From: an uncultured beta proteobacterium
GTDB lineage: Bacteria; Pseudomonadota; Gammaproteobacteria; Burkholderiales; Burkholderiaceae_C
NCBI GenBank assembly: GCA_903954045.1
Contig: CAJBMJ010000341.1
Span: 1 to 34,160, forward strand
DNA: 34,160 bases
Reading direction: 5' to 3'
The notes beneath the pieces are model-generated. The model was not told where the DNA came from. It ran no database searches and saw nothing but the letters and a program-made list of their open reading frames with translations. Positions 3,959 through 12,332 of the stretch are shown piece after piece. The first letter of the stretch is position 1. Every line of letters begins with the position of its first letter. A program made the translations under genes and the position numbers.

Positions 3959-6900
3959 TCAGCTTTCTCCGTCCGCCAGAGGTGGTGAAGTTTGCACCTC
4001 CAGTGCCAGTGCCTCGAGGGCCAAACTAAGCTCCCGGCTGGCATTGAGCAAAGCCATGCGTTGGCCACCATGGGCCGCCGCACTGTGCGCAATGTGTGTA
4101 GCCCAAATCTCATGCGCCAGCGCGTGCACCTGCTCATGCAGCGGGCCGATGCGCTGAAAAGTTGGAAGGTGACCGTAGCGGGCAGAACCCCCACCATGAA
4201 ACCACTGGCCAAATCCGCAGGTGTCGCTGTTCAATGAAACGGTGACCGCAGTGTCGCCTGCATCCAGCTGCCGGATCAGGGCAGCCATCCAGACCTGGTG
4301 ACTTCGAGCTGCGGTGAGCAGCGGCAAATCGGCAACCGCCGTGGTCATCGGCAGGCGGTTTTTCCAGGGGGTGGTTTCGTTCCAATGGCGCGTCCACTGC
4401 ACAAACTGATCTGCCGGCATGGGGCGAGAAACGCCGTAGCCCTGCACCAGATGGCAACCCAGTTGCAGCAGCACATCGCCGTGCTCCAGTGTCTCTACGC
4501 CTTCGGCAATCACTGGCCGGTTGAAGGCCTGTGCCAGGCGCACCACGCTGTCCACAATGCCCAGGTCGTTCGGGTCTTCCAGCATGTCACGCACAAAGCT
4601 CTGGTCAATCTTGATCATGTCCACAGCCAGACTGCGGAAGTACGAGAGCGATGAGTACCCAGTGCCAAAGTCATCCAGTGCAAAACGGATGCCCATCGCG
4701 CGGCACTGGCGCAGCACTTTGGTAGCCCGCTCCATGTCGCCGATGGCAGCGGTTTCAAGTATTTCCAGTTCCAGGTGGTGCGGCTGCACCTGCGGATACT
4801 TCTTCAGGGCCGCTTCGAGGTGGCCGACAAAGCCGGGCTCGAGTAGATGGTCTGCGCCGATGTTGGCGCTGAACACGCCACCTAGGCCCTCTTCCTGCCA
4901 CTGAGCTATCTGGCGCAGTACATTGGCAATGACCCAATCCCCCACTGCAAACTCCAGTGGTGTACCACCGAGCAACGGCAAAAACGCAGAAGGTGGCAGC
5001 AGGCCGTGCTCCGGGTGTTGCCAGCGAATCAGCGCTTCCGCGCCAATCACTTTCCCGCTGGCCAGATTCACCTTGGGCTGGTAGTACAGCACCAGCTCAT
5101 TTTGGGCCAAGGCCTGTTGCAGGCGTTCGAGCTGCGCCTGGTGGTCTTTGATGAGACGGTCCTGCTCCGAGTCAAACAGGTGGTAGCGATTTTTTCCAGC
5201 CTGCTTGGCGACGTACATGGCCTGATCGGCATGGCGCAAGAGTGCGTCGGCATCGGAGTCGTCTTGCGGATATAGCGTCACGCCGATGCTCGCAGACACC
5301 ATAGCCTGACTGTCACCAAGTTGCACCGGTTGTGCGATGGCTTGCAGCACGCGGGTCAGGGCACGGTGGCTTTCGTCGCGGTGGCGCACATCGGAAAACA
5401 GCAGTACAAACTCGTCGCCACCCAAGCGGGCCAAGGTGTCGTCTTCGCGCAAAACGCCTTGCAGCCGGCGGGAAATTTCAATGAGCAACAAGTCCCCGCT
5501 GGCGTGACCCAACCGGTCATTCACGTCTTTGAAGCCGTCCAGATCAAGCATGCATACAGCCAGCGTGCTGCGGTCGCGCCGGGCGCGTGCCAGTGCCACC
5601 TTGAGCCGGTCGGAAAGCAGGCGGCGATTGGGCACACCGGTCAGCACGTCGTAGTTGGCTATGTGGGCCAGCTCGCTTTCATGGGCTTTAAGTCGGGTGA
5701 TGTCGCTGAACACCGCCAGGTAGTGCATCAGCTTGCCAGCATCATCGCGCACCGTCGAAATCGCCAATAGCTCGGCGTACACCTCGCCGTTCTTGCGCCG
5801 GTTCCAGACCTCGCCACTCCACTGGTCGTGCTGTGAGAGAGACTTCCACAGTTTGGTGTAAAAGTCCGGACCCTGGCGCCCCGAGCTCAGGATGCGCGGT
5901 GTCTGGCCCAGCACGTCGTGCCGTTCATAGCCCGTGATCCGGCTGAAGGCGGGATTGATATCGACGATCACATTGTTGGCATCGGCGATCATGATGCCTT
6001 CGTAGCTGTTGGCAAACACGCTGGCCGCCATCAGCAACTGCTCGCGCGCCTTGCGCTCAGTGCTGATGTCTCGGTTATAGCCATGCCAGATCGTGCTGCC
6101 GTCGCTTTGTCGCACCGGTGTTGCGTGGCCGCTTATCCACTGCACCGACCCACCTGGCATGCGCACCCGGTGTTCGTGAAACCAAGGGGTGAGCTGTGCC
6201 GCGGACTCGGCAATGCTGAGCAACATGCCCGGCAGGTCATCAGGGTGAACGGCATCGAATACGCCGCTCGCATCATCGCGCACCGCCTCGGGCGTCACAC
6301 CATAAATGTCGATGAGGCCTTGACTGGCATACGGAACATGTGCGGTACCGTCGCTGCGCTGGCGAAACTGATAAATCACGCCTGGCACATGGGCTGCCAG
6401 CTGTTGAAAGCGGTCCAGCGCCTCACGTCGCGCTTCTTCGGCCTGTACGCGCGCTGTTATGTCGCGCCCTATGCCCAACACACCAAGTAGCTTCCCGTGG
6501 CGGTCATGCAAAGGCGTCTTGATAGTCTCCAGCAGTTCTTCATGGCCGTCACTGGCAAACGGCACGCGTTCCTCATTGGTGTGGGATTTGCCGCTTTCCA
6601 GGACTTTCAGGTCGTTGGCTCTGAATAAGTCCGCCAGCGCTTTGGGAACAAAGTCATAGTCGGTCTTGCCAACAATCTCCTGCTCAGAGTGCCCGAAAAA
6701 CGTCTCAAAGCGGCTGTTGCAGGCCAAGTACACGCCTTGGGGATCCTTCAACCACATCAAATCCGGCTGGGCTTGCATGAGTGTGCGCAGAGTGTCGTTC
6801 TGGCGCTCCAGAGACTGCTCCAGTGCGCGCTGTGCAGAGATATCACGCGACACACCCAAGAGCGCTGGCTGGCCGTTCCAGCTGCCGCGCACGATGCGGG

Positions 6901-10408: not shown

Positions 10409-10999
10409 TCAGGGTGCGCTGCGTGCGAGCTTGTACACCGAGGTGCCTGCCATCAAGTTAGGCGCAAACCGCACTGTACGGCCATTTTGCAGACCAAAGC
10501 TGTCGAGTACGCGCAAACCCGTGCGCTGTGCAAGGGCGGCCAGATCGGCATGGGTCCCCACGCGGATGTTGGGCGTGTCATACCACTGGTAGGGCAACCT
10601 GCGGGTCACGGGCATGCGCCCTTGAAGGATGCTCAGCCGGTTAGGCCAGTGCGCAAAGTTGGGAAAAGCCACAATGCCCACCCGGCCCACACGCGCTGTC
10701 TCGCGCAGCATGACCTCGGCATTGCGCAAATGCTGCAGGGTGTCAATTTGCAGCACCACGTCAAAAGATGCATCCTCAAACAGGGCAAGCCCCTCGTCCA
10801 GGTTGAGTTGCACTACATTCACACCCCGTTTGACACAGGCCAGCACGTTGGCATCGTCAATCTCCACGCCGTAGCCCGTGCAGCCACGCTCACGCTGCAG
10901 GTACTCCAGCATGGCACCATCGCCACACCCGAGATCGAGCACGCGGGACCCCTGTGGCACCAGTTCGGCAATGGCTTGCTGGATTGTCGCGTCGCTCAT
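10409..10999 (-). CDS. metW: Methionine biosynthesis protein MetW
   Basis: The 196-residue protein is a class I methyltransferase fold with the SAM-binding motif VLDLGCGDG at ~20-28 and the MetW-specific stretches [15 protein letters not shown] and [12 protein letters not shown]. MetW partners MetX in homoserine acylation in many proteobacteria and is normally encoded directly after it. Here its start overlaps the metX stop by 4 bases (10996-10999), so the pair is translationally coupled and under control of the leader upstream of metX. Confidence 0.96.
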
Positions 11000-12207
11000 G
11001 CTGCAACCCCCAGCTCTTTTGCAATGCTATCAAAATAAGAGCTGACTACGCCCATATAACGGGCGTCATCGAGCAAAAAGGCATCATGCCCGTGGGGCGC
11101 ATCGATCTCGGCGTAACTCACATCCCGGCGGTTGTCGAGCAGGGCTTTGACGATTTCACGACTGCGTTTGGGGCTGAATCGCCAGTCGGTAGTAAAGCTC
11201 ACCAGCAAGAACTTGCAGGTAGCGCGAACCAGCGCCTGGCTCAAATCACCACCAAAGGCGCGCGCCGGGTCAAAGTAGTCCAGCGCACGGGTGATCAGCA
11301 AATAGGTATTGGCATCAAAGTACTCGGCGAATTTGTCACCCTGGTAGCGCAGATAGCTCTCAATCTGGAACTCCACGTCTTGCGTGCTGAATTTATAGGC
11401 CCCCACGCTCCCCACTGCGTTGGGTTCGCTGACCCCTGAGGCGGCGCTCAGGTTGCCGTTTCGAACCGCATCAAGCAATTGCCTACCGAACTTCTCGTTC
11501 ATCACATCATCACTCAAGTAGGTGATATGCCCAATCATGCGGGCAATGCGCAAGCCTCGCTTGGGGATGACGCCGTGCTGATAGAAGTGTCCGCCATGAA
11601 AATCGGGGTCGGTCACGATGGCGCGACGTGCCACTTCGTTAAAGGCAATGTTTTCCGCTGTCAGGTTGGGTGCACTGGCCACCACCACGGCGTGGGCCAC
11701 CCGGTCAGGATATTGCAGCGTCCATGAAAGCGCCTGCATGCCGCCCAGACTTCCGCCCATCACCGCTGCGAGCTTTTGAATTCCCAATTGGTCGAGCAAA
11801 CGCGCTTGGGCATGGACCCAGTCTTCCACGGTGACCACCGGAAAATTGGCGCCATACACCTGGCCACTGGCCGAATCCGGGTTGGGATGCATGGGACCGG
11901 TGGAGCCAAAACACGAACCCAGGTTGTTGACGCCAATGACAAAAAAGCGGTTGGTGTCTACCGATTTTCCCGGACCAATCATGTTGTCCCACCAACCTTC
12001 GCTCTTGTCCTGGCCTTCATACACACCGGCCACATGGTGCGAAGCATTCAGGGCGTGGCAGATGAGCACGGCGTTGGACCTGTCGGCGTTCAGCGTGCCA
12101 TAGGTCTCATAACTGAGTGCGTAGCCACGAATCGCCGCGCCACTTTGCAAGGCAAGTGGTGCTTCGAAATGCATGCTTTGCGCAACTGCGATCAAACTCT
12201 TTTCCAA
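10996..12207 (-). CDS. metX: Homoserine O-acyltransferase MetX
   Basis: This alpha/beta hydrolase-fold enzyme acylates homoserine in the first committed step of methionine synthesis. MetX motifs are clear: [33 protein letters not shown], the nucleophile elbow GGSLGGMQ, an Asp in FTTDWRFSP and the catalytic His in [10 protein letters not shown]. Whether acetyl-CoA or succinyl-CoA is used cannot be told by eye. The start is uncertain. Family members usually begin MSLIAVPQSMHF, but the expected ATG is AAG here. I place the start at TTG 12207 ([14 protein letters not shown], 403 aa) because GGGGA lies 6 bases upstream; ATG 12174 is the alternative. A TTG at 12240 is open but lies inside the terminator hairpin. 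The leader carries a SAM-II riboswitch. Confidence 0.95.
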
Positions 12208-12221
12208 CCCAATTCCCCAAT

Positions 12222-12254
12222 AAAAAACCCGGCGTCGCAAAAAACGAGGCCGGG
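12222..12254 (-). terminator. Intrinsic terminator in the metX leader (attenuator)
   Basis: Read on the minus strand, CCCGGC (12254-12249) and GCCGGG (12233-12228) form a perfect 6-bp stem followed immediately by six U (12227-12222). It lies between the SAM-II element and the metX start, so it is in position to stop transcription before metX. The 5' arm (CCC) can instead pair with the 3' strand of riboswitch helix P1; see the riboswitch entry. Confidence 0.8.
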
Positions 12255-12264
12255 TGCTGGTGTC

Positions 12265-12319
12265 GGTCCGTCTTTAGCTGTATTTGTTAAGCGCCCGCAA
12301 GCTGGAGCAAATTGGCGCT
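12265..12319 (-). promoter_or_regulatory. SAM-II riboswitch upstream of metX
   Basis: On the minus strand the element reads AGCGCC (12319-12314), AAUUU, a C/G-containing loop, GGCGCU (12295-12290), AACAAAUAC and then AGCUAAA (12279-12273). This matches, as I remember it, the metX SAM-II aptamer in order and spacing: P1, AUUU, loop, P1', ...AUAAAU..., AGCUAAA. P1 is a perfect 6-bp helix. UCC in the loop can pair with GGA near the 3' end (about 12268) for the pseudoknot. SAM binding would shut off methionine synthesis. GGGCGCU (12296-12290) can also pair with AGCACCC (12258-12252), six pairs with one C-A mismatch. That helix is incompatible with both P1 and the downstream terminator, giving a simple transcription-attenuation switch. 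Confidence 0.85.
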
Positions 12320-12326
12320 GGGGAGA

Positions 12327-12332
12327 ATTGTA
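12327..12332 (-). promoter_or_regulatory. Possible -10 element of the metX promoter
   Basis: TACAAT on the minus strand would place the transcription start about 7 bases downstream, right at the first base of the SAM-II element. No good -35 hexamer is visible at 16-18 bases, so this is a weak call supported mainly by position. Confidence 0.35.

Follow-up and report, generated by a model that had tools for sequence, protein, structure and literature searches.

The window analysed here, a 34,160-nt stretch of contig CAJBMJ010000341.1 (assembly GCA_903954045.1) from an uncultured beta proteobacterium, carries upstream of metX-metW a leader that resembles a SAM-II riboswitch and runs into a hairpin with a U tract. 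This raises the questions of whether the leader belongs to the known SAM-II class and which of its strands would serve as antiterminator. The first-pass annotation described SAM-II core elements in order with a perfect P1, followed by a GC stem with six U, and its coordinates and minus-strand orientation were confirmed in these respects (Table 1), with all six P1 pairs present and P1 closing a loop that contains AUUUG and UUGC.

Table 1. Features of the metX leader and neighbouring genes in the window
Feature	Position	Strand	Evidence or remark
Glycerophosphodiester phosphodiesterase-like gene	13615-12395	same as metX	upstream of leader
metX leader	12340-12190	minus	precedes metX-metW
-10-like promoter element TACAAT	12327..12332	minus	sequence reading; 7 nt 5' of P1
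P1 5' strand AGCGCC	12314..12319	minus	pairs with 12295-12290; RF00521 alignment
Pseudoknot P2 5' strand UCC, in P1 loop	12304..12306	minus	3 bp with GGA 12269-12267
P1 3' strand GGCGCU	12290..12295	minus	sequence, RF00521 alignment, genus pair counts
SAM-II core GCUAAAG, conserved	12272..12278	minus	RF00521 alignment
Pseudoknot P2 3' strand GGA	12267..12269	minus	pairs with UCC 12304..12306
Candidate antiterminator, 5' strand (SAM-II core with 3' strand of pseudoknot)	12264..12278	minus	minimum-energy nascent-RNA fold; swap, shuffle and pair-count tests
Candidate antiterminator, 3' strand (segment of terminator 5' arm, the loop and opening bases of the 3' arm)	12237..12252	minus	same fold and tests
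Terminator hairpin	12227..12255	minus	12255-12244 with 12238-12227; 11 pairs, one C.C mismatch
U tract, six U (UUUUUU)	12222..12227	minus	sequence reading
metX, homoserine O-succinyltransferase-type MetX, TTG start, 399 aa	10996..12195	minus	NCBIfam NF047916 (MetX_succinyl), 636.1 bits, cut-off 560
metW	10409..10999	minus	TIGR02081, 233.4 bits, cut-off 189.5; overlaps metX end

Class and layout of the metX leader

The covariance search with RF00521 (SAM_alpha/SAM-II) that had been suggested as a check gave an end-to-end match, with all 79 model positions aligned to 12328-12252 of the minus strand and a score of 30.0 bits (E 3.4e-5 when 281 bases were scanned against all 4227 Rfam families at a lowered threshold), but one that falls short of the gathering score, the curated cut-off of 36 bits, so that no entry appears when the window is scanned with Rfam defaults. 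When the whole genome was searched with RF00521, the element was the best SAM_alpha match (E 1.2e-4); nine matches were obtained at E≤10, a limit at which all 14 control genomes also match. One of these (L003, 22.7 bits) was dropped because no GCUAAA core was seen by eye. In the 281-base scan, Bp2_287 on the opposite strand (19.7 bits vs a cut-off of 70) and the remaining low-scoring matches, with E of 3 or more, were set aside.

Scores among relatives suggest that the RF00521 score declines gradually from clear members to the window element. In the order, 147 of 399 genomes match at E≤1e-4, 69 of them above the cut-off; for the family the count is 111 of 200 at E≤1e-3 (50 above the cut-off), compared with 0/14 controls. 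In the genus, matches at E≤0.1 were obtained in 50 of the 61 genomes searched, but this limit is loose and admits 3 of the 14 controls as well; 30 genomes match at E≤1e-3 (manual count), and none of the 61 reaches the cut-off, which thus appears to hide SAM-II switches across the genus. The gene downstream of the element is metX in 102/108 family, 27/29 genus and 26/85 order rows. Starting from the protein, the best 80 of 585 MetX relatives were kept, including those of Rhodoferax, Curvibacter, Limnohabitans and Acidovorax, which points to a betaproteobacterial host, probably in Comamonadaceae and possibly Rhodoferax. Upstream sequence of 200 nt or more was available for 78, and a strict SAM-II motif was present in 70 of these, every one of the 70 with a terminator. 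The -10-like motif, P1, core and terminator follow one another in the same order in the relatives. Three of the eight leaders lacking the strict motif (L307, L355 and L360) have a variant element by eye. In the other five (L319 from Limnohabitans, L328, L333, L365 and L376), no SAM-II element was recognised within 300 nt upstream of metX, which suggests loss or another form of control.

Conservation within the aligned leaders is high. GCUAAA, a motif that also served in part to locate these leaders, is present in 108/108 of the family; the P1 core bases are kept in 107-108 of the 108, and the TA.A positions equivalent to those of TACAAT are T in 105, A in 105 and A in 106. In an alignment of 24 genus leaders, 99.3% of P1 cells are paired, with almost no variation, as are 92.6% of those of the terminator helix. 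The pseudoknot, only 3 bp in the window, is paired in 98.6% of cells and invariant, hence without covariation. In swap tests, which compare natural with swapped partners, its two strands (r2 x r6) gave z -2.8 (11/5000) for 63 leaders of family and order and 39/5000 for the order alone; within the family no covariation was found (z 0.5, 3368/5000).

A simple consensus scan for promoters and terminators detected, under the rules built into it, neither the sigma-70 promoter nor the terminator; one likely reason why a stem interrupted by a mismatch was missed is that the loop allowed is 3-8 bases. The mechanically called metX ORF starts within the terminator, at 12240. By-eye comparison with a relative (L097) points to the TTG at 12195 as the probable start codon, 26 nt beyond the U tract.

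Judged by sequence and architecture, the element is a real SAM-II-type attenuator, though not an accepted Rfam match, and the RF00521 match, the terminator and the MetX relatives support the earlier reading of a SAM-II-type aptamer with an intrinsic terminator before metX in a betaproteobacterium. It shares with SAM-II P1, the AUUUG and UUGC loop motifs, the GCUAAAG core, a methionine-synthesis gene downstream and also a terminator, as reported for many members (PMC1273637); it differs in its score below the Rfam cut-off, in a P1 that is almost invariant across the family and in the short 3-bp pseudoknot. A terminating SAM-II in a betaproteobacterium, put forward as a useful variant, is not new in view of the literature, and the element is an ordinary member of the known class. 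Putative terminators were described for many SAM-II representatives in 2005, with Bordetella among the aligned species (PMC1273637), and were reported in 2007 to be most frequent in alpha- and beta-proteobacteria (PMC2258182); the class itself is described as most common in alpha-, beta- and gamma-proteobacteria (PMC2704228).

A third precedent is the metXZ element of beta-proteobacteria (Leyn et al. 2014, PMC4239095), described as six conserved regions with a helix formed by regions 1 and 4, a pseudoknot by regions 2 and 6, a terminator and a poly-U stretch, located before metX or metZ, found in 10 of 11 Comamonadaceae, and proposed to act by a terminator-antiterminator mechanism. The window element has in common with it metX-metW, the Comamonadaceae, the helix and candidate pseudoknot, and the terminator with poly-U. 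That report treats metXZ as new and separate from SAM_alpha, which it gives as reported only in Rhizobiales and Rhodobacterales, whereas the window element matches SAM-II. From the published description of architecture, genes and taxa, metXZ is very probably the RNA of the window, and an orphan element would very probably be resolved into a known class. Among the papers listed in searches of the open-licence PMC literature, none was seen to equate metXZ with SAM-II or to name the core as antiterminator.

The antiterminator first proposed, with the P1 3' strand

The antiterminator of the first-pass annotation, GGGCGCU (12296-12290) paired with AGCACCC (12258-12252), was not borne out. Six of its seven pairs can form, with a mismatch at C12293.A12255, and folds in which it was enforced reached -10.5 to -13.2 kcal/mol, vs -17.3 to -23.9 for the free RNA, a cost of about 7 to 13 kcal/mol. 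Across the 24 genus leaders 64.1% of its cells are paired, or 122/168 (73%) when the C.A position is left out; the eight positions include three that lack a pair in 16-23 of the 24 leaders and a fourth that lacks it in 9, and the outer part is not conserved. The covariation that was to be looked for in leaders of relatives was not seen, with no covarying pair in the 24 genus leaders. Because P1 is near-invariant in the family, covariation on the P1 side of this helix would be invisible; the terminator side varies in the genus leaders and in doing so breaks the helix.

Swap tests with the P1 3' strand had no clear effect. When the target was extended to bases lying 5' of the terminator arm, the 63 non-redundant leaders gave z -0.4 (1644/5000), the arm alone giving z 0.5 (3379/5000); the order alone gave z 1.3 and 1.8, and the 29 non-redundant family leaders, with the loop, z -1.6 (291/5000). 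An earlier test on 94 leaders showed a very small effect (-6.91 vs -6.80 kcal/mol, 34/2000), with 98/2000 for 49 non-redundant leaders and, for the arm alone, 52/2000 (94 leaders) and 582/2000 (49 leaders). Swaps of arm plus loop gave z 0.1 (main swap tests), -0.1 (phylum sample) and +3.3 (named metX set, 70 leaders); these omitted the bases 5' of the arm, and a repeat including them left the outcome unchanged. Against shuffled hairpins the Stouffer values were -1.3 (29 non-redundant family leaders) and 0.1 (34 order leaders). This candidate was rejected on the enforced folds, swap tests and pair counts together.

A predicted alternative helix between the aptamer core and the terminator

Folds of the nascent RNA that ran through the terminator loop showed a different helix of 13 bp, with P1 kept. 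It pairs 12264-12266 with 12252-12250, 12268 with 12248, 12269-12275 with 12246-12240 and 12277-12278 with 12238-12237, and has in the window an unpaired U12276.U12239, a bulged U12247 and a mismatch A12267/C12249. One of its sides is made of the core and pseudoknot 3' strand, the opposite one of the terminator 5' arm and loop, so that it would exclude both the SAM-bound pseudoknot fold and the terminator; on paper, 12252-12250, 12246-12244 and 12238-12237 are paired in antiterminator and terminator alike, with different partners. Just before completion of the terminator 3' arm, P1 together with this helix has -23.9 kcal/mol. The finished terminator fold is more stable (-32.5 kcal/mol), and the antiterminator must therefore win kinetically. 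Truncated folds that ended before the terminator loop had shown no excess of pairing between the aptamer and the terminator arm (38/94 natural vs 39 to 48 swapped); the pairing emerged once the fold was extended to the terminator loop and the strand after the core. Among 23 leaders resembling that of the window, duplexes of up to 15 bp were found (e.g. L082).

Conservation of this helix was examined in several sets. The family set comprised 113 matches in 111 genomes, of which 110 loci plus the window gave 108 rows (the motif finder missed L026, L107 and L111; L120 and L121 are outside the counts). The order set, 85 of 89 loci examined (L128, L147, L150 and L152 were missed), represents part of the matches in the 147 genomes. 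For the main swap tests, 164 of the 172 leaders with terminators were used and reduced to 63. The phylum sample used 49 of 50 loci (L261 was missed), part of the matches listed; 41 of the 49 have terminators, and the sample lies mostly outside the class, being presumably alphaproteobacterial.

In the 63 non-redundant leaders of family and order, the core with r6 pairs better with its natural hairpin than with swapped ones (-12.02 vs -10.45 kcal/mol, z -5.6, 0/5000), although not in every subset. The 29 family leaders gave z -4.7 (0/5000), the 34 order leaders z -2.6 (21/5000) and 17 non-redundant leaders of the phylum sample z -2.8 (28/5000); the named metX set gave z -6.6 (0/5000) with 70 leaders and z -1.6 (245/5000) with the 9 non-redundant ones. 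With r6 alone, the part beyond the core, the family values were z -4.0 (49 leaders, 0/2000) and 11/5000 (29 leaders), and there was no clear effect in the order (z -0.8, 1007/5000) or the non-redundant named metX set (N=9, z -1.4, 470/5000). Compared with shuffled hairpins, the core with r6 reached Stouffer values of -7.8 (29 non-redundant family leaders) and -6.6 (34 order leaders), and pairing with the terminator arm and loop exceeded that of the shuffled hairpins at positions 0 to 15 from the core in the family (94 leaders) and about -4 to 12 in the order (78 leaders). A strong match of the core itself is not general across leaders: at least 6 of the 7 GCUAAAG bases have partners in arm and loop in 22/94 family and 26/78 order leaders (shuffled, 10.2% and 5.0%).

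The genus alignment consists of the window and 23 of 29 genus loci; L264 was omitted for want of a terminator, and L278, L284, L285, L286 and L289 as near-duplicates by eye. In it, 88.9% of the cells of the alternative helix plus P1 are paired (84.3% for the helix alone), as against at most 49.3% for slid versions, a comparison that by itself favours the natural register, as the counted structure was derived from one of the 24 sequences. Shuffles reached the paired percentage and the covariation score in 0/500 cases, although relatedness can also beat shuffles. One pair is C-G in 12 leaders, G-U in 11 and a gap in 1; this sole two-sided change in the genus is perhaps a single inherited event. 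Three positions of the helix are unpaired in 9, 13 and 12 of the 24 leaders, and another three in 3 to 6. A further count used leaders with NUUU(A/G)GC before a stem and U run (63/222, 50 distinct): in 39 of the 50 distinct cases the base that follows GCUAAA is paired with its partner, compared with 32.0 when permuted (41/10000), L273 being scored as a miss with its motif taken from the linker.

The alternative helix is a better antiterminator candidate than the one proposed at first. Leyn et al. speculated, much as the first-pass annotation did, that the GC-rich regions 3 and 4 of metXZ contact the terminator as antiterminator (PMC4239095); the swap and pair-count results do not support this, and regions 5 and 6, which by our mapping would correspond to the core and the pseudoknot 3' strand, fit that role better.

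Another complementarity was met by eye in other families, between the aptamer loop L1 and the terminator. In L126, L131, L133, L134, L154 and others of the order, the terminator interior contains AAGCUG or GCAAGCUG, complementary to the loop sequence CAGCUUGC, which is perhaps a second antiterminator design. The order-level swap test was not significant (z -0.1), the family giving z +2.7, and pairing of this loop with the terminator was not retained as a candidate at either level.

Proposed switching scheme, alternatives and other SAM-II elements

The leader combines an aptamer match, a terminator and an alternative helix conserved beyond the swap controls, with mutual exclusion on paper. On the evidence of these sequences, it is likely a riboswitch of the SAM-II class, with metX-metW repressed by transcription attenuation through the alternative helix. 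At low SAM, the stretch made up of core and pseudoknot 3' strand (12278-12264) would be free and would pair, in the emerging RNA, with the terminator 5' arm and loop (12252-12237), forming the antiterminator so that metX is transcribed; without SAM this helix would be the first to form, its 3' strand being already transcribed while the terminator 3' arm is still incomplete. With SAM bound, 12278-12264 would be held in the SAM site and pseudoknot, the terminator 5' arm would join its own 3' arm, and transcription would stop at 12227-12222. P1 would be formed in both states, which agrees with the protection pattern described for a SAM-II RNA, in which P1 is protected with or without SAM and P2 and L1 change with SAM (PMC10907184).

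For Burkholderiales, and probably for terminating SAM-II leaders generally, we lean somewhat towards the view that GCUAAAG and the pseudoknot 3' strand form the antiterminator strand, so that the nucleotides of the ligand pocket would double as expression platform and metXZ would be a SAM-II riboswitch of this kind. This offers a testable switching scheme for a class whose gene-control mechanism had, in the words of a 2007 report, 'not yet been experimentally established' (PMC2258182). A comparable case is the metZ riboswitch of S. meliloti (Scheuer et al. 2022, PMC9373788), likewise a SAM-II element before a methionine gene, with a terminator predicted to be SAM-induced and an RNA of about 100 nt that fits termination; it differs in its alphaproteobacterial host.

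Other explanations of the leader were weighed against this scheme. That P1 opens without SAM and its 3' strand takes up AGCACCC might be argued from the four inner pairs CGGG/CCCG, which are invariant in the 24 genus leaders, from the frozen P1, which hides covariation on that side, and from the very small effect in the earlier swap test and the family value of z -1.6; set against the enforced folds, the pair counts and the swap results given above, it is quite improbable. A little less so, though still unlikely, is a SAM-II aptamer that affects translation or RNA stability and is followed by a constitutive terminator setting the basal level. A terminator beyond the SAM-II aptamer of S. meliloti metA, not predicted to be SAM-affected (PMC9373788), would be a parallel; the complementarity of the core/P2 strand to the terminator across families argues against such an arrangement here, as does the position of the likely start codon, so far beyond the U tract that the aptamer would not cover the ribosome site.

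A further reading keeps the fold but has it sense a SAM relative such as SAH instead of SAM. The score under the SAM-II cut-off, which none of the 61 genus genomes exceeds, would be in keeping with another ligand, but elements of the family that carry the GCUAAA core reach as much as 48.6 bits and the set of target genes is shared in part with SAM-II elsewhere (PMC4239095), and we think this very unlikely. It is hardly credible that the terminator belongs to the phosphodiesterase-like gene, with the aptamer resemblance a product of decay: that gene does lie upstream on the same strand, but the conserved order of -10-like motif, P1, core and terminator in relatives, and the metX gene that follows nearly all family and genus elements, speak against it.

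Several further SAM-II elements were met during the searches. The genome of the window contains a second SAM-II match (L122:2389-2720, G000:C569; 26.1 bits); some 180 nt beyond it come a further SAM-II-like element recognised by eye (no Rfam match at E≤1), a GGAGAG and an 11-codon ORF. No methionine gene was recognised near L122, and the two downstream ORFs had no Pfam match. Tandem SAM-II elements are in print, with 44 cases (PMC9481103). SAM-II aptamers with neither a terminator nor metX were found in two other genomes, G121 (L119:4341-4417 and 6258-6334) and G966 (L294 and L297). Those of G121 lie within two near-identical 264-bp inverted repeats that extend as far as the 3' end of the aptamer, are about 1.8 kb apart and face outward, and G966 has two similar copies with related downstream sequences. 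In the metX leaders of Hylemonella sp. (L355) and Hylemonella gracilis (L360), the stretch from P1 to GCUAAA is 37-40 nt long vs about 12; both are otherwise SAM-II-like and by eye have apparently a hairpin inserted between P1 and the core.
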